Of a DNA stretch of 61,413 nt, positions 1 through 7,777 are shown piece after piece (positions within the stretch are counted from its first letter, which is position 1; each line of letters begins with the position of its first letter). The stretch is from Nitrosopumilaceae archaeon. GTDB lineage: Archaea > Thermoproteota > Nitrososphaeria > Nitrososphaerales > Nitrosopumilaceae. The notes under the pieces were generated by a model. That model did not search any database. It saw only the letters and a program-made list of their open reading frames with translations, and had not been told where the DNA came from. The position numbers were made by a program, and so were the translations under genes. The stretch spans positions 1-61,413 of the forward strand of contig JAHELB010000004.1 in the NCBI GenBank assembly GCA_024644385.1, read 5' to 3'.

Positions 1-54
1 TAGAATTTTTTGAATTTCCAACGGTAATTACTCGATAATTAAATAAAAAAAAGT

Positions 55-969
55 TTAGATCTCGATTCCTGAAATGGCATCCCTTACATTTTTTACACCT
101 GCATCAAATGTTTTTCTTTCGCTATCATCAAGTTCTAGCTCAATTATTTTTTCAACACCATTCTTTCCTATTATTGCCGGTACTCCAATTGTGACATTTG
201 AATGTCCATATTCACCCTCAAGAAACGTTGCAACAGGGATAACTTGTTTTCTATCTCTTACCACAGATTCTACAATTGCAGAAATTGCATTTCCTGGAGC
301 ATGGACGGTAGCCCCTTTTAACTCGATAACCTTAGCAGCAACCTGTTTGGTGTTTTGAATCAATTCGTCCAATTTTTCTTTGGGTAAAAACGAGGAAAGT
401 GGTATTCCAGAAACAGTTGAAAATCTAGGTAAAGGCAACATATTTTCTCCATGCTCTCCAATTACTAGTGCTCTGATTGAATCACGAGAATGACCTGTTG
501 CCTCATGAATGAATTGTCTAAATCTAGATAAATCTAACATGCCCCCCATTCCAAAGACTCTATTTTTCTCAAATCCTGATGCTTTATAGGTTACATACGC
601 CATAGGGTCAAGAGGATTGGTCACTGGCACAATCATAGAATCATTTGCATATTTTTTTATATTCTCAACTACACTTTTTACAACACTTGCGTTGATTTTT
701 AATAGGTCCATTCTGGTCATTCCAGGTTTTCTTCCAGAACCTGCGACAACAACTACTATTTTGGATCCTTGCATATCTGCAAAATCATTTGAGCCAGTTA
801 TTTCTACATCAATTCCTTGCTCTGACAACATGTGGTTGATATCCATTGCTTCTCCTTGAGGAAGTCCATCAACAACATCAAGGAGTAATATTTGATCGTC
901 TAGTTGTTTTAATGCCGAAAACAAAGCTGCATCGCCCCCAACTTTTCCTGAACCTATAATTGTAATCAT
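55..969 (-). CDS. mdh: Malate dehydrogenase (LDH/MDH family)
   Basis: NAD(P)-dependent oxidation of malate to oxaloacetate in the cytoplasm. The protein (304 aa from the chosen start) has an N-terminal Rossmann loop GSGKVGG, the family segment [15 protein letters not shown], where the arginines fit a dicarboxylic substrate rather than lactate, VTNPLDPM, and the catalytic histidine in [12 protein letters not shown]. Length is normal for the family. I chose ATG at 969 rather than a TTG three codons upstream because a TATA-like stretch (about 990-1002) lies some 27 nt ahead, as expected for a leaderless mRNA, and because the Rossmann strand begins right there (MITIIGSG). It is transcribed divergently from larC; the spacer of about 90 bp must hold both promoters. 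Confidence 0.95.
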
Positions 970-984
970 AAAAATCAAAGATAA

Positions 985-1045
985 TTTTCATTAATTAAAT
1001 CTAATGAAATTTGTAATTTAATTAGACAGAATTTATATGCATTTT
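985..1045. promoter_or_regulatory. Divergent promoter region mdh / larC
   Basis: On the plus strand the TATA-like element atttatatgc (1031-1040) lies about 26 nt before the larC ATG at 1062. On the minus strand tttaattaat (about 990-1002) lies about 27 nt before the mdh ATG at 969. Both spacings equal the usual archaeal TATA-to-start-site distance, so both mRNAs are probably leaderless. No clear operator palindrome is visible between them. Confidence 0.6.
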
Positions 1046-1061
1046 TGATGAATTTTAATCA

Positions 1062-2282
1062 ATGGTTATTGTTATCGATCCCTTTGTTGCGGGGATATCC
1101 GGTGATATGGTTTTATGCTCCTTGGTAGATCTTGGGGCTAATGGGAATAAAATCATTAGGGGAGTAAAATCTTGTGAAAAATTCCTTCCAGGGTCAATTT
1201 TAAAAAAAATCGATTTTACAAAAATCAATAAACATGGAATAGATTCTACTGGTTTACTTTTAGAAATAGAGGAAAAAAGTCATGAACGAACTGGCTTGGA
1301 GTTAAAACAAGCTCTAACCCAATCCATAGAAGAACTCCATCTATCTGAAAACGCCAAAAATTTTACAACATCTTGTATTGATACTCTTATTTTTGCTGAA
1401 TCTAAAATTCATGGAATTCCAAAAGAGTCTGTACTTTTTCATGAAGCCTCAAGTATAGATACGCTTGTAGATATTCTTGGGGTTGCAATTGCTATAGATG
1501 ATTTAGGTATTTTTGATGAAAAAATTGTCTCTATGCCTATTGGTGTTGGTGGGGGAACGGTAAATTTTTCCCATGGGACAATGACAAATCCTGCTAGTGC
1601 TGTACTTGAAATTTTAAAAAATACGAATTTGAAAATTCATGGAGGGATAGTTAAAAGTGAATTAACCACTCCAACAGGTGTCAGTATTTTGGTAAATTTA
1701 ACCAATACATCGATAGAATACTACCCTTCAATGAAAATTGATTCTATTGGATATGGAGCGGGTAAAAAGGATTTTGACAATTTTTCAAATGTTCTGAAAA
1801 TAGTAAAAGGAAATGAAAAAAATCTTGATTCTGATTTTGTAATAAATCTTGAAACTAATGTTGATGATGTTTCGGGTGAAATATTGGGAAATTTAATTGA
1901 AACCATTATGAAGGTTGGCGCAAAGGATGTATCCATTTATCATGGAATTACAAAAAAGGGGAGGCCAACAAATCTCATTTCAGTAATTTGTAATAATGAT
2001 ACAATTGATAAAATAACTGAAACTCTAATTTCAGAAACGGGAACTTTGGGGATTCGAGTTTCTTCCTCTGAACGAATAATAGTTCCACGAACAATTCATG
2101 AAACTCAAATTTTTCTAGGTGATAAATCGTTCAAAGTTAAATACAAAATTTCTTCTTTTAAAGGTAAATCTTCTTTTAAAATTGAATTTGATGATGTTAA
2201 AAAAATTGCCACTTCTCTTGATAAATCCATTAAAGAAACAGATTCATTGATTAGAAATGAGATTTTAAAGGAGGATGTCTAA
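1062..2282 (+). CDS. larC: Nickel insertion protein LarC (nickel pincer cofactor synthesis)
   Basis: LarC-family protein, 406 aa, full length in one frame, unlike the programmed-frameshift LarC1/LarC2 of Lactobacillus. In characterised members LarC inserts nickel into the pyridinium bis-thiocarboxylate mononucleotide made by LarB and LarE, using CTP. Seen here: the N-terminal segment IDPFVAGISGDM typical of the family (formerly UPF0272/DUF111), FHEASSIDTLVDILG, the glycine-rich PIGVGGGTVNFSHG, and the C-terminal half starting around NLETNVDDVSGE. It is the first gene of an apparent operon: the next gene (larE) starts at or just past its stop codon, and a cysteine desulfurase follows. A TATA box 26 nt upstream suggests a leaderless transcript. 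LarA and LarB are not in this window. Confidence 0.88.
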   Translation: MVIVIDPFVAGISGDMVLCSLVDLGANGNKIIRGVKSCEKFLPGSILKKIDFTKINKHGIDSTGLLLEIEEKSHERTGLELKQALTQSIEELHLSENAKNFTTSCIDTLIFAESKIHGIPKESVLFHEASSIDTLVDILGVAIAIDDLGIFDEKIVSMPIGVGGGTVNFSHGTMTNPASAVLEILKNTNLKIHGGIVKSELTTPTGVSILVNLTNTSIEYYPSMKIDSIGYGAGKKDFDNFSNVLKIVKGNEKNLDSDFVINLETNVDDVSGEILGNLIETIMKVGAKDVSIYHGITKKGRPTNLISVICNNDTIDKITETLISETGTLGIRVSSSERIIVPRTIHETQIFLGDKSFKVKYKISSFKGKSSFKIEFDDVKKIATSLDKSIKETDSLIRNEILKEDV

Positions 2283-2283
2283 A

Positions 2284-3084
2284 ATGTCAAAACTTGAAAA
2301 CCTGATTGAATGGTTTAACGGGAAAAAGGGAGTAATTATTGCTCTTTCAGGCGGTGTTGATAGTGCACTAGTGGCATATGCAGCTTTTCAAAAACTTGGA
2401 CCTAATGCTTTGGCAGTTACTGCTGATTACAAAACATTATCGAAAGAAGAACTGAACGATGCAAAACAAATTTGTTCAGAAATTGGAATCACTCAAAAAT
2501 TCTTGGAATATGATGAACTTGAAAATGAAGAATTTGTACAAAATGATTCTAAACGATGTTTTTATTGTCGACAAGAATTGGGAACCCACTTGCTAGAATT
2601 AGCACAGAAACATGGTATTGAATTTGTGGTTGACGGCACAAATTTGGATGATTTAGGAGATTATCGGCCAGGAATTGAGGCTCTTAAACAAAAGGGCATT
2701 AGGAGTCCATTAGTAGAAACCAATTTAACAAAAAATGAAATTCGAATAATAGCAAAATCTGTTGGTTTGTCTGTGTGTGACAAGCCATCAAATTCTTGTT
2801 TAGCCTCTAGAATTCCTTGGGGCCAAAAAATTACTATTGAACGATTACTAAGGATAGAATATGGAGAAAAAATAGTCAAACAAATAACCCAATTAAAACA
2901 AGTTAGGGTACGAGATCTCCAGGGTCTAGCAAAGGTAGAGGTTGAAAAGGAAAAAATTTCTGTTTTAGCAGAAACATCCATTCTTGAAGAAATTACAAAA
3001 AAATTAAAATTAATTGGATTTTCCGACGTTGTCATTGATCCAGAAGGATATAGTCCTGGAAAAATAAATGTGATCGTAGATTGA
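2284..3084 (+). CDS. larE: ATP-dependent sulfur transferase LarE (three-cysteine type)
   Basis: PP-loop ATPase that activates the pyridinium dicarboxylate intermediate by adenylylation and puts sulfur on it. The PP-loop SGGVDS is at residues 22-27 (numbering from ATG 2284). Three cysteines stand out: KRCFYC (C92, C95) and SNSCLASR (C172). The last aligns with the sacrificial cysteine of Lactobacillus LarE. The CxxC plus third Cys is the arrangement known from LarE enzymes that hold a [4Fe-4S] cluster and take sulfur catalytically instead of destroying their own cysteine. ATG 2284 is preferred over ATG 2275 because AGGAGG (2269-2274) would abut 2275 but lies 9 nt from 2284. The stop overlaps the next start by 4 bp, which strongly links larE to the cysteine desulfurase. 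Confidence 0.88.
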   Translation: MSKLENLIEWFNGKKGVIIALSGGVDSALVAYAAFQKLGPNALAVTADYKTLSKEELNDAKQICSEIGITQKFLEYDELENEEFVQNDSKRCFYCRQELGTHLLELAQKHGIEFVVDGTNLDDLGDYRPGIEALKQKGIRSPLVETNLTKNEIRIIAKSVGLSVCDKPSNSCLASRIPWGQKITIERLLRIEYGEKIVKQITQLKQVRVRDLQGLAKVEVEKEKISVLAETSILEEITKKLKLIGFSDVVIDPEGYSPGKINVIVD

Positions 3085-4238
3085 TCTATTTAGATAATGC
3101 GGCATCTACAAAAATCCATGATGAAGTCCTACAAGAAATGATTCCTTTTTTTAAGGAACAATATGGTAATCCTTCATCAATTCACAGTTATGGCCGGTTT
3201 ACCAGAAAAGCTATCGAGAAAGCAAGGAAACGAGTTGCAAATTTAATTAATGCAGATCCGTCCGAAATTTTGTTTACTTCTGGTGGAACTGAATCAAATA
3301 ATACCGCTCTTTTTGGAATCGCAAAAAAATATCCCAAATCGCAAATTATTACTTCCTCAATTGAACATGATGCTATATTAGAGCCATGTAAAAAATTAGA
3401 AAAAGAGGGATTCGATGTAATCTATCTCCCAGTCGATAAATATGGTTTGATAGATCCAATGAATTTAAAAAAAAATATTTCCAAAAATACTTCTTTGGTG
3501 TCCATAATGTTTGGTAACAACGAGGTAGGAACAATTGAGCCTATAGCAGAGTTGGCCAAAATTTGTATGGACCATGATATTATTTTTCATACAGATGCTA
3601 TTCAGGCATTGGGAAAAATCCCAATAAATGTAAAAGAATCAAGTATAGATTTACTTTCAGTTTCTTCCCATAAAATTCATGGTCCTAAAGGAATTGGCGC
3701 ATTATACATCAAAAGAGGAATTTCTCTAGATCCAGTAATCTTAGGTGGAGGACAAGAAAATGGCTTACGTTCCGGAACCGAAAACGTATCTAATATTGTG
3801 GGTTTTGGAAAAGCTTGTGAAATCTCAAGATTAAATTTTTTAGAAAATATTTCAAAATTGAAGGGGATGCGAGATTACCTATCTTCTAAAATTCTGCAAG
3901 AAATTCCAGAAGTATTTTTAAACGGTCATCCGGAAACGAGATTACCTAATAATGTTCATTTAACTTTTCTTGGAGTCAATGGAGAAGATCTTTTAATTAA
4001 ATTAGATGAAAATGGTATAGCTGCATCTACAGGCTCTGCTTGTTCGGTTCATATCCAAAAAGAATCTCATGTCCTTCGGGCTATGGGATTTTCGCATGAA
4101 CAAATTACTGGTTCTCTTCGATTAACAATTGGAGTTTTTAACAATTTAGAAGAAATGGATAAAACTGTGGAAATATTAAAAAATGTAGTTAAAGAATTAC
4201 GCTCCGTTTCACCGTTCAAAGAAAAATATTCTTTTTAA
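3081..4238 (+). CDS. Cysteine desulfurase (NifS/IscS family)
   Basis: PLP enzyme that removes sulfur from L-cysteine as a protein persulfide for Fe-S cluster or thio-cofactor assembly. The 385-aa protein starts with the family-typical IYLDNAASTK, has the PLP lysine in SSHKIHGPKG (K198), and the persulfide cysteine in the flexible loop STGSACSVH (C321). It is a group I (NifS/IscS-like) rather than SufS-like enzyme by its long active-site loop. The start is TTG 3081, overlapping the larE stop (ttga), so the two are translationally coupled. That position implies it feeds sulfur to LarE or its cluster, though a general role in Fe-S assembly is equally possible if it is the only copy in the genome. 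Confidence 0.93.
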   Translation: MIYLDNAASTKIHDEVLQEMIPFFKEQYGNPSSIHSYGRFTRKAIEKARKRVANLINADPSEILFTSGGTESNNTALFGIAKKYPKSQIITSSIEHDAILEPCKKLEKEGFDVIYLPVDKYGLIDPMNLKKNISKNTSLVSIMFGNNEVGTIEPIAELAKICMDHDIIFHTDAIQALGKIPINVKESSIDLLSVSSHKIHGPKGIGALYIKRGISLDPVILGGGQENGLRSGTENVSNIVGFGKACEISRLNFLENISKLKGMRDYLSSKILQEIPEVFLNGHPETRLPNNVHLTFLGVNGEDLLIKLDENGIAASTGSACSVHIQKESHVLRAMGFSHEQITGSLRLTIGVFNNLEEMDKTVEILKNVVKELRSVSPFKEKYSF

Positions 4239-4246
4239 TTGGAAAC

Positions 4247-5065
4247 CTAGATTTTCATTTGGAACTTTATTTTGGTAATCGCTGTTGTTATAATAATTCC
4301 CAATACTAAAATCAATGATATAAGTGTCCCAAATTCTGGAACTACTGTGGTTCCAATAATTTCGATTTTCGAGTCACCTTCTTCAAAATTAATTGTAATT
4401 AATCTTGTTTGGGGAGTTTTTTCAGTTTCTTGATAAAGATATTGTATATTGTCGATCAAAACGATGAACGTTTCATCTTGACCGTTGGGCTTTTCTGCAT
4501 CTATTGAATTTCTAGGAAGTTTAAGGGAGATGGTTCCCTCGTCTGGTGTATCAATAAGGACTATTAGAGTATAATTATCCGGCTCAAGAATCATATCTAC
4601 TACGCCTCCTCCTTTGATTGTAAATTCTACATCAAAAGTCCCACCATTTGGAATTTGGACTTCAAAACTATCCGTTGTTTCTAGGAACTCTTGTTTAGGC
4701 GTAAATTCTATTGTTGTTTCTGCTATGTTTCCTTCTCCATGTGAAACCCTAATCAAATATTCTCCCTCTGTTCTCCATAATGGTTTTTCTGCAATTATGG
4801 TATGAGAATAACTTCCATCTTGTGCTGGAAAAAATTGGGCAGCATCTATTAAATTTCCTTCCTTCCAAAGTTGAAGGATGATGGGAGTATCTACAATCAC
4901 AGTTTTTAATTGACCTGATATTACAACAGTATCTCCTTCATCATAGTGATTGTCATCAGTTTTAACTGTAAGAAATGGAATCTCGTCACTTTGAGCAAAG
5001 ACGGGATAGATACTAAAACCAATTAAAATAAAAAATAACAGAATCTTAACATTCACAAAAATCAT
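4247..5065 (-). CDS. Secreted PEFG-CTERM protein
   Basis: Exported or surface protein of 272 aa with unknown function. It has a signal peptide (hydrophobic residues about 5-23, ending PVFAQ), two beta-rich Ig-like stretches with the local repeat style seen in its neighbours (GDTVVISGQL, then WRTEGEYLIRVSHG), and a C-terminal tripartite sorting signal: VVPEFG, a hydrophobic helix, then a short Lys-containing tail. PEFG-CTERM signals are known in thaumarchaea and are thought to be processed by an archaeosortase. Its 3' end differs in DNA sequence from the three PEFG genes upstream, so it is the divergent member of the array. It converges with the cysteine desulfurase, 8 bp apart. Confidence 0.8.
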   Translation of the reverse strand: MIFVNVKILLFFILIGFSIYPVFAQSDEIPFLTVKTDDNHYDEGDTVVISGQLKTVIVDTPIILQLWKEGNLIDAAQFFPAQDGSYSHTIIAEKPLWRTEGEYLIRVSHGEGNIAETTIEFTPKQEFLETTDSFEVQIPNGGTFDVEFTIKGGGVVDMILEPDNYTLIVLIDTPDEGTISLKLPRNSIDAEKPNGQDETFIVLIDNIQYLYQETEKTPQTRLITINFEEGDSKIEIIGTTVVPEFGTLISLILVLGIIITTAITKIKFQMKI

Positions 5066-5093
5066 GCATTTTGGTTTCTATATCTCCTTTACT

Positions 5094-5222
5094 ATTAAAA
5101 AATGAAAAAAAGTTGTAGATTTAGTATCTTGGCATTATGCTTAGTCTTGATTTTGCAGAAACTGCAATTATTGATATAATTGCTACTGCTAGAATCAAAG
5201 CTGCAATAGAACCAAATTCCGG
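5094..5222. repeat. Direct repeat, copy A of 3 (3' end of PEFG genes)
   Basis: About 125 bp shared with 6014-6144 and 6933-7062. It covers the stretch downstream of the stop (aaaaaatgaaaaaaag), the stop itself, and the codons for the hydrophobic helix and tail of the PEFG sorting signal. Identity falls off abruptly just upstream of the PEFG codons. Copy A carries a few differences (for example aata-gaa instead of aattgcg) relative to copies B and C. Confidence 0.85.
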
Positions 5223-5978
5223 AATTACATGTGTTCCAATAATTTCAATTTTTTCAGAACCTGCTAAGAACATTACAGTAATTTTGTTTCCTTTGATTTC
5301 TACATCATCCCATTCCTCGCCATCCACAAGTACCATGAATGCTCCAGAAAGGACTTCTTTTGATGGAGTTATCGTTAGGGTTCCATCTTGGGTTGCACTG
5401 ATCATTATAACAAGAGATTTGTCATTAGTATTGACACTTATCCCAGTTACGGTTCCGCCTGTAATAGTATATGGGACACATTTGCCCTTCACGGATAATT
5501 CCGAGTTTGCACATTTGCCTGTAGTTGGTTCAGAAACAATTCCTCCAATTATTTCAAACAAAACTTTGTTACTTTTTACATTACTTCCATAACTTGCTTT
5601 GAGACGATAATCCCCATCAAGTTTCCAAAGATTACCTGCTGTATTGAAGGTAGTACTAAAGTCACCATTGTCGCTTACTGGTATTTGGTCAATCGCAATA
5701 ACAGAATTTAGGGAATTTCTGACAGTAAGAGTTACTGGAGTTCCCGAAACCACACTTGCTACATGTCCTTTGACCATGATGGTATCGCCATGAGCATACA
5801 TTGGCTTATCTGTCCAAAGGGAAAGTGGAAGATCTCGAATTAGTAGCTGTTTTGCAATATCTCGTGGATCATCTAATTCACAATTAGGACATGACACTTG
5901 GGCATATGCTGAAGATATCGTCAAAGTACTTACCGTGGTAAAAATGGCTAGCAGCACAAAAAATGTACGGTAATTCAT
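5121..5978 (-). CDS. Secreted PEFG-CTERM protein (array copy A)
   Basis: 285-aa exported protein of unknown function. Features in order: signal peptide ending SSAYAQ, a CPNC motif just after cleavage, an Ig-like domain (YAHGDTIMVKGHV ... LWKLDGDYRLKASYG), a short segment with two cysteines (GKCANSELSVKGKC), a second beta domain, and the C-terminal signal IPEFGSIAALILAVAII with tail ending SIMPRY. The last 36 or so codons and downstream flank are nearly identical in DNA to the two following genes. A TATA-like stretch in the 64-bp spacer (6005-6020) probably starts its own transcript. Confidence 0.8.
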   Translation of the reverse strand: MNYRTFFVLLAIFTTVSTLTISSAYAQVSCPNCELDDPRDIAKQLLIRDLPLSLWTDKPMYAHGDTIMVKGHVASVVSGTPVTLTVRNSLNSVIAIDQIPVSDNGDFSTTFNTAGNLWKLDGDYRLKASYGSNVKSNKVLFEIIGGIVSEPTTGKCANSELSVKGKCVPYTITGGTVTGISVNTNDKSLVIMISATQDGTLTITPSKEVLSGAFMVLVDGEEWDDVEIKGNKITVMFLAGSEKIEIIGTHVIPEFGSIAALILAVAIISIIAVSAKSRLSIMPRY

Positions 5979-6013
5979 CCTATAATCGGTTCACAATAAT
6001 CTCTATTTATGTA

Positions 6014-6144
6014 TATTTAAAAAATGAAAAAAAGATACAGATCTAATATCTTGGCATTATACTTAGTCTTGATTTTGCAGAAACTGCAATTATTGATATA
6101 ATTGCTACTGCTAGAATCAAAGCTGCAATTGCGCCAAATTCTGG
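6014..6144. repeat. Direct repeat, copy B of 3
   Basis: Second copy of the 125-130 bp repeat at the 3' ends of the three tandem PEFG-CTERM genes. Spacing to copies A and C is about 920 bp on each side. The segment just after the stop differs slightly (agatacagatcta versus agttgtagattta). Confidence 0.85.
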
Positions 6145-6897
6145 AATAACTTTTCCGTCTACAATACCTACGACTACTGAAGCTTTATGATCTGGAGATT
6201 CTCCTTGTTGTGCAGTTACAGTATAATCTCCATCTTGAATCCACAATGGGCCTCCTGTAGTAATATTTGTTGCAAACTTGTTGTCTAAACCAGGTGTTAT
6301 TTGCATCACAGAAACTACGTTACCATTTGGTGCAATAACCTTCAAGGTGACATCTGGATTAGTTCTATCTGTTTGTCCTGTAATACCTATAATAGTTGAA
6401 CCTTCAATTGCATTGGCCCTTATTGATAATCCCTTCTTCACTAGATTCTCTTTAGGCATAAAAATACCCGTCTCCAAATTTGATTCTGTTATTAAAGTCT
6501 CAACTGCCATACCATTTAATATTTCGACCTCAACTGACATTGTGTATATCGAATTTTTACTTACACTTTGCATTCCAGTTATGGTGTAGAAACCATTTTG
6601 TTTCCATAATGGACTAATTTTTATTTCAGTTGAATACTTTCCTGCTGCGTCAGGTGTTACTTGATCTACTGCTAACCTATTAAAACCATCAGGAGATGTC
6701 ACAGTAAATGTGATATCAGTAACCTGTTTTGCGGTTTGACCACGAATTAAGATTGTGTCTGATCCCTCTGATGCTTGGGCGGTTAAGGACATTCCTTGGA
6801 CTTGAGCAAAAGCATCTTGGTGAATCGAAGATACTGATACTACTGAAATTGCCATTAGGACCAACATGATCGATGTTGGTAAAACTTTGAAATTCAT
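6043..6897 (-). CDS. Secreted PEFG-CTERM protein (array copy B)
   Basis: 284-aa exported protein of unknown function. It has a signal peptide ending HQDAFAQ and two Ig-like domains that look like internal duplicates: each has IRGQT or GITGQT, then V..P.G...V.QITP, then PLW.Q.G.YT. The C-terminal PEFG signal and SIMPRY tail are almost identical to array copies A and C. The duplicate structure (residues about 35-135 and 155-245) suggests the basic unit of this whole family is one domain of about 95 aa. The family is abundant in thaumarchaea but uncharacterised; a cell-surface role is inferred from the signals only. Confidence 0.8.
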   Translation of the reverse strand: MNFKVLPTSIMLVLMAISVVSVSSIHQDAFAQVQGMSLTAQASEGSDTILIRGQTAKQVTDITFTVTSPDGFNRLAVDQVTPDAAGKYSTEIKISPLWKQNGFYTITGMQSVSKNSIYTMSVEVEILNGMAVETLITESNLETGIFMPKENLVKKGLSIRANAIEGSTIIGITGQTDRTNPDVTLKVIAPNGNVVSVMQITPGLDNKFATNITTGGPLWIQDGDYTVTAQQGESPDHKASVVVGIVDGKVIPEFGAIAALILAVAIISIIAVSAKSRLSIMPRY

Positions 6898-6932
6898 CCT
6901 GTTTCAACACCCGTTATCTTGGTATTTATAGA

Positions 6933-7062
6933 TATTTAAAAAATGAAAAAAAGTTGTAGATTTAGTATCTTGGCATTATACTTAGTCTTGATTTTGCAGA
7001 AACTGCAATTATTGATATAATTGCTACTGCTAGAATCAAAGCTGCAATTGCGCCAAATTCTG
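6933..7062. repeat. Direct repeat, copy C of 3
   Basis: Third copy of the repeat. It matches copy B through gcgccaaattctgg and copy A again in the segment after the stop and in the following acatgtgttcc codons, a mosaic that suggests gene conversion among copies rather than simple one-time duplication. Confidence 0.85.
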
Positions 7063-7777
7063 GGACTACATGTGTTCCGATAATCTCAATCTCCTCTGCA
7101 CCTGCTGGGAATGATATTACTAGGGTTCTGTCAGTGGATGTAGATGTTTCATCAAAGTCTACCTCTTCACCATCAACTAAGACGAAGAAGGCATCATCAT
7201 CATTTCCAATCTTTGCATCAATCAATTCTCTTGGTAGGGTAATTGTGAGTTGACCATCATCAAATGCATCAATTGCAATAATGAGAGAATTTGCATCTAC
7301 ATCAGGTGTAATTGATAATAGTTTTCCACCTGTGATTTCAAAGTTTATCCAGAAATCGGTTCCAACTACCTGTAACAAGTTGGGCTTCCCAGAATCACTT
7401 ATTCCGTCAAAGTAAAATGTTGTCTCTGCGGTTCGACTTTCGGTTGCATAGAGTACTTTAATCGTATAATCTCCCGCAAACTTCATGAGATTTCCTCCAG
7501 CGGTGAATTGTGTACCAAATGATTTGTCGGCTCCTGGCATAACTTGATCAACGGCCACTTTGTTTCCATTAGGTGCAAAAACCTCGATACTAATTGCATA
7601 TCCAAAAAGACTTTCGCTTACTTTTCCAGTAACCATGATTGTATCGCCTTCCATATAGGATGCCTTATCAGTAGTAACAACGATTGGTTCCACTATTTGT
7701 CCAAATGCGGGTGCTATTCCGATACCTGCAACCATGATCGCAAATAAGGAAAACACCGATAGACGAGTATTCATCAA
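6962..7777 (-). CDS. Secreted PEFG-CTERM protein (array copy C)
   Basis: 271-aa exported protein of unknown function. Signal peptide residues about 1-26 (ending APAFGQ), an Ig-like domain YMEGDTIMVTGKV ... LMKFAGDYTIKVLYA, then an acidic second domain carrying FVLVDGEEVDFDE, a motif shared with copy A (MVLVDGEEWDD) and loosely with the 4247-5065 gene (FIVLIDNIQYLY). The C-terminus is VVPEFGAIAALILAVA with tail SIMPRY. It is transcribed divergently from rpoH, with about 170 bp between them that hold both promoters. Copies A and C are most alike in domain layout, copy B differs in its second domain. Confidence 0.8.
   Translation of the reverse strand: MMNTRLSVFSLFAIMVAGIGIAPAFGQIVEPIVVTTDKASYMEGDTIMVTGKVSESLFGYAISIEVFAPNGNKVAVDQVMPGADKSFGTQFTAGGNLMKFAGDYTIKVLYATESRTAETTFYFDGISDSGKPNLLQVVGTDFWINFEITGGKLLSITPDVDANSLIIAIDAFDDGQLTITLPRELIDAKIGNDDDAFFVLVDGEEVDFDETSTSTDRTLVISFPAGAEEIEIIGTHVVPEFGAIAALILAVAIISIIAVSAKSRLSIMPRY

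Follow-up and report, generated by a model that had tools for sequence, protein, structure and literature searches.

The window, the whole stretch of 61,413 nucleotides analyzed here, is contig C77 of a genome that is ~96% complete in 85 contigs. At its left end a malate dehydrogenase (MDH) gene lies divergent to larC, which is followed on the same strand by larE and a cysteine desulfurase gene of the nifS type (Table 1). Profile models back the identities of the three open reading frames as they had been named in a first-pass annotation of this DNA, and NCBIfam and Pfam confirm the divergent mdh that it had also called. A LarE start at position 2275 gives its reading frame an 8-bp overlap with that of LarC, and a start at its second ATG, at 2284, leaves no overlap; larE and nifS share the four bases TTGA (3081–3084), the overlap noted earlier. 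The intergenic region between the two transcription directions holds a TATA-like box, TTTATATG, ~30 bp upstream of the larC start, which we take to be a putative promoter element of that gene. Four adjacent minus-strand genes (4247–7777) lie between the lar unit and RNA polymerase genes; their products are secreted and resemble one another in their C-terminal PEFG-like anchors, and the genes are apparently tandem paralogues.

Table 1. Features at the lar locus, given in window coordinates except for LarB, which is given on contig C23.
Feature	Position	Strand	Evidence
Assembly overlap with C23 (G000:C23:12266-12386)	1..121	.	Exact 121-bp identity
Malate dehydrogenase (MDH)	55..978	-	NCBIfam and Pfam; RKPGM motif in PDB alignment; single close orthologue per genome
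83-bp divergent intergenic region, mdh-larB versus larC-larE-nifS	979..1061	.	Sequence
LarC, single ORF with LarC1 and LarC2 domains, predicted nickel insertion	1062..2282	+	Models, solved chains, dN/dS
LarE, predicted PP-loop sulfur insertase, CxxC...C	2275..3084	+	ORF, models, alignment
NifS/IscS-type cysteine desulfurase, K198 and C321	3081..4238	+	ORF, models, alignment
LarB, outside the window, directly beyond the 121-bp overlap	C23:11501-12286	-	ORF above cut-off

LarC scores above the curated cut-offs of both TIGR00299 and NF052512 (LarC1, LarC2), matches PF01969 with an E value of 5.5e-106 and matches the solved LarC chains 12bi and 6bwo. LarE reaches 267.9 bits against TIGR00268 (cut-off 150) and has the SGGxDS motif, as do all relatives compared. 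Its cysteines 95, 98 and 175 in the called ORF become 92, 95 and 172 when counted from the second ATG, which is how the first-pass annotation had numbered them and which is also the numbering in Thermotoga maritima LarE (PMC9283937). The CxxC...C pattern is kept in 12 of 12 sequences compared, and the three cysteines, at positions equivalent to those of T. maritima, support the assignment of this LarE to the [4Fe-4S] cluster type.

The absence of a visible LarB, part of the earlier description, holds within the window only, where the gene is missing from view because the contig breaks there. The final 121 bases of contig C23 (12,386 bp) are identical to the initial 121 of the window, and this sequence occurs at just those two places in the whole genome. 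C23 ends in LarB, which thereby adjoins MDH across the contig junction, so that the absence of LarB from the genome is rejected. The protein scores 240.7 bits against NF033503 (cut-off 175), and its Cys-227 aligns with the catalytic cysteine of LarB chain 7mj0, in an NSC motif. The complete unit therefore comprises larB-mdh and, on the opposite strand, larC-larE-nifS, and the window carries its right part. MDH is probably transcribed together with larB, and in Nitrosopumilaceae this transcript possibly extends to the gene after larB. That gene encodes a B12-binding type radical SAM protein (G000:C23 9832-11433) that directly follows larB in this family and is ~81–96% identical across it, far above the lar genes.

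With LarB, LarC and LarE all above cut-offs, the CxxC...C present and the equivalents of catalytic or ligand residues conserved in all three proteins, the gene content agrees with the earlier prediction of a pathway to the nickel-pincer nucleotide (NPN) with a cluster-type LarE. As in the NPN biosynthesis of Lactobacillus plantarum, T. maritima and Moorella, LarB, LarE and LarC are all present, with both LarC domains, a PP-loop LarE and the equivalent of the LarB cysteine. Unlike in L. plantarum, where LarC is split into two ORFs, LarC is here a single ORF; unlike in all three, mdh and a NifS-type desulfurase belong to the unit and the genome has no canonical LarA.

The best matches of the desulfurase are of the NifS/IscS type: it falls just short of the NifS equivalog (518.7 bits, cut-off 530.75) and passes the IscS subfamily model NF002806 (318.5 bits, cut-off 304). 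Alignment supports the PLP lysine (Lys-198) and persulfide cysteine (Cys-321) that had been read from the sequence. That this might be the genome's only desulfurase, serving general Fe-S assembly, is rejected, because contig C12 carries a separate suf operon (sufB-sufD-sufS-sufU) with its own SufS; the desulfurase of the lar unit is distinct from the general one. A third, SufS-like class-V aminotransferase is encoded on C32. The five genomes of family f4 that were checked, all without lar genes, have SufS and no NifS-type match of comparable score. Together with the separate suf operon, this supports specificity for LarE, and the desulfurase is likely the dedicated sulfur donor that the first-pass annotation had proposed, with the qualification that the arrangement is not universal: Nitrosopelagicus loci keep LarC and LarE and lack the adjacent nifS, and two relatives that are not ammonia oxidizers (G151 and G197) have a SufS-type gene in the nifS position. 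The [4Fe-4S] LarE of T. maritima, which resembles the present one in its CxxC...C, accepts sulfur from the cysteine desulfurase IscS in vitro (PMC9283937). Both desulfurase genes of that organism lie far from larE, whereas here one overlaps it, and this linkage provides genomic support for a sulfur donor so far shown only in vitro.

To place the unit in its lineage, we surveyed 200 genomes drawn from the class Nitrososphaeria, 140 of which have amoA. LarC was detected in 155 of the 200, LarB and LarE above cut-off in 154 and 153, respectively, and canonical LarA (PF09861) in 16. Among the amoA-bearing genomes, 136 of 140 have LarB and LarC and 135 have LarE above cut-off. The four without LarC also lack LarB and LarE, as would be expected had a single locus been lost to a gap in the assembly. 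Sister lineages of the same order that have LarBCE and no amoA (families f6–f10) are represented by nine genomes, and seven of these nine have LarA; family f4 has neither amoA nor LarBCE. Across the sample the presence of LarBCE coincides almost perfectly with that of amoA, although the counts are not independent events because the genomes share ancestry. Two amoA copies are present in the genome under study (G000:C84:95-643 and G000:C45:1348-1896), and likewise in some relatives; they could be a real duplication or a strain mixture.

The larC-larE-nifS order described in the first-pass annotation is conserved, as part of the larB-mdh / larC-larE-nifS unit, across Nitrosopumilaceae and much of Nitrososphaeraceae, apart from the Nitrosopelagicus loci already mentioned. 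Named loci of Nitrosopumilus, Nitrosarchaeum, Nitrosopolaris and other Nitrososphaerota have the unit order in common, some contigs stopping inside the unit. Candidatus Nitrosocaldus has larB at a distance of ~5 kb, and genome G136 (family f3) has larB-mdh ~12 kb from larC. Among the loci examined, linkage to mdh is confined to Nitrososphaeria. In a LarC tree the ammonia oxidizers form one clade (support 100/99), within which the Nitrosopumilaceae, Nitrososphaeraceae and Nitrosocaldus groups are separate. This tree follows the family structure and so fits vertical inheritance of LarC in ammonia oxidizers. Family f2 groups with Nitrosocaldus (100/100); an assignment of the amoA-less family f4 to Nitrosocaldaceae was wrong. 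Median pairwise dN/dS, taken over pairs with 0.05 < dS < 1.5, is 0.11 for LarB, 0.20 for LarC, 0.18 for LarE, 0.14 for NifS and 0.06 for MDH. With medians this low the unit is not decaying; purifying selection acts on each of its five genes.

To our knowledge, LarA is the only enzyme family that uses NPN. A profile search of the genome under study found no canonical Lar_N domain (PF09861), so that the other half of the earlier description, the lack of a visible LarA, extends by Pfam from the window to the whole genome. The claim that the client need not be lactate racemase is upheld by the same domain, which is missing in 138 of the 140 amoA genomes, the exceptions being G128 and G176. The two LarA proteins of these LarA-bearing ammonia oxidizers score best with a malate racemase model, below its cut-off. 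DUF362, of the same clan as Lar_N, is likewise missing from the genome under study and was set aside as an alternative client, being absent from nearly all ammonia oxidizers. Divergent LarA proteins could escape PF09861, because this model gave no match in the C. glutamicum genome used as a control, and a LarA homologue has been reported from that species (PMC11770544).

The genome does encode a degenerate protein of the LarA fold away from the lar unit. It has 360 residues (G000:C85:863-1945, starting MPEIWLNYG), matches the LarA C-terminal domain and has a gene flanked by those of a phosphoribosyltransferase-domain protein and an M50 peptidase. As a candidate client it would bind NPN despite lacking the usual lysine and histidines and would perform an altered chemistry. 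PF21113, the model of the C-terminal domain, matches weakly, as a rule once per genome, in 96 genomes listed, of which the majority are ammonia oxidizers; a few of the matches are true LarA. The best NCBIfam match of the protein is the LarAH6 malate racemase (a local match with E = 7e-15 here; 8e-25 over residues 106–375 in G151), and hhalign gives 98.1% over 355 columns against true LarA, indicating full-length homology. Against this, alignment and profile comparison show that the residues conserved in characterized LarA homologues (PMC12611868) are not conserved here, neither the NPN lysine nor the two catalytic histidines, nor the histidine that binds nickel, nor the ribose aspartate. The protein is moreover conserved across Nitrososphaeria, including families f4 and f15, neither of which has LarBCE. 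With its key residues lost and its presence where LarBCE is absent, we consider it rather unlikely to be the client; it is probably a LarA fold that has departed from NPN chemistry, though it could still bind NPN noncovalently.

We therefore consider it probable that the unit makes NPN, or something closely related to it, for a protein other than LarA in ammonia-oxidizing archaea. LarB would carboxylate and hydrolyze nicotinic acid adenine dinucleotide, LarE would thiolate both carboxylates with persulfide sulfur that its [4Fe-4S] cluster receives from the adjacent desulfurase, and LarC would insert nickel with CTP. The NPN-type product would then be used by a protein other than canonical LarA. 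From the genes we infer an active pathway, with the desulfurase as sulfur donor to LarE, nickel as the metal and a client outside the LarA family. A pathway kept clade-wide without canonical LarA suggests that ammonia-oxidizing archaea possess another nickel enzyme. Because LarBCE follows amoA so closely, this enzyme may act in central nitrogen, carbon or energy metabolism; we regard it as evenly balanced whether a core enzyme of ammonia oxidizers, unrelated to LarA, uses NPN in this way. If so, it would be the first NPN enzyme outside the LarA family.

The retention of LarBCE while LarA is absent would also be accommodated if the pathway made something else, either a pincer with another metal, for example copper, or a thiolated nucleotide that acts as a metal ligand or carrier. 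Ammonia oxidizers are copper-rich organisms, which counts in favor of such a product. The known features of LarB, LarE and LarC are nevertheless conserved, with no altered sites seen at this resolution, and we judge a different product to be unlikely.

The first-pass annotation had moved from the divergent MDH to a hydroxyacid racemase or epimerase, a step that is not supported. In an alignment with solved MDHs from the PDB, MDH has the malate-type RKPGM motif, and one close orthologue per genome was found in 30 genomes, lar-less lineages included, with the exception of G197. By these sequence criteria it is the cell's ordinary housekeeping malate dehydrogenase. As the only close MDH, present also without lar genes, its linkage to them can be incidental; it may exist for regulation or by chance. 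MDH is thus weak evidence for a hydroxyacid racemase and a weak candidate for the partner of one. Malate racemase or hydroxyacid epimerase chemistry tied to MDH would be in keeping with the place of mdh within the conserved unit in Nitrososphaeria and with the best-scoring, though sub-threshold, model of the two ammonia-oxidizer LarA proteins, but the near-complete lack of canonical LarA and the distribution of MDH make it very unlikely. A reading of the lar genes as remnants of an earlier LarA system, still to be lost, could draw on the presence of LarA in related lineages and is hardly tenable, being already contradicted by their persistence from the ancestor that ammonia oxidizers have in common, even in genomes of 0.8–1.2 Mb, by the lack of stops within the LarC, LarB and LarE frames listed and by dN/dS values of 0.1–0.2.

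A clade-wide NPN pathway without a known client means that the earlier observation at this locus was right and understated. Genomes with larBCE and no larA have been put at ~15%, many of them cyanobacterial, and non-LarA NPN proteins have been proposed (PMC11796402); Haloferax volcanii was noted to have larBCE without larA (PMC8305020). The present case resembles these in having the pathway without a LarA client and differs in that the genes are clustered, apparently vertically inherited and near-universal across an entire functional guild. Ammonia-oxidizing archaea are a good place to look for the client that NPN has in the ~15% of genomes that make it without LarA: they are abundant and of global importance, cultures of some exist, and the pathway is present in nearly all of their small genomes. 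We found no report of LarBCE retention in ammonia oxidizers, in a search that had most subscription journals outside it. In the accessible text of PMC8397731, LarA among ammonia oxidizers is specific to the sediment Nitrosopumilales clades NP-theta, -delta and -iota and is interpreted as lactate use, with no mention there of LarBCE retention in other ammonia oxidizers; going by that text, our two LarA-bearing amoA genomes are the same kind of exception. Soil ammonia oxidizers have been said to be without LarA (PMC11131427), and a "lactate racemase" cluster reported in NS-delta (PMC10579303) is at odds with the absence of PF09861 from family f3 here. To read the lar genes of ammonia oxidizers as lactate metabolism is misleading. 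The mirror case also occurs in our sample: genomes G001, G005, G009, G013, G017 (f11) and G027 (f16) have LarA-family matches without detectable LarB or LarC.
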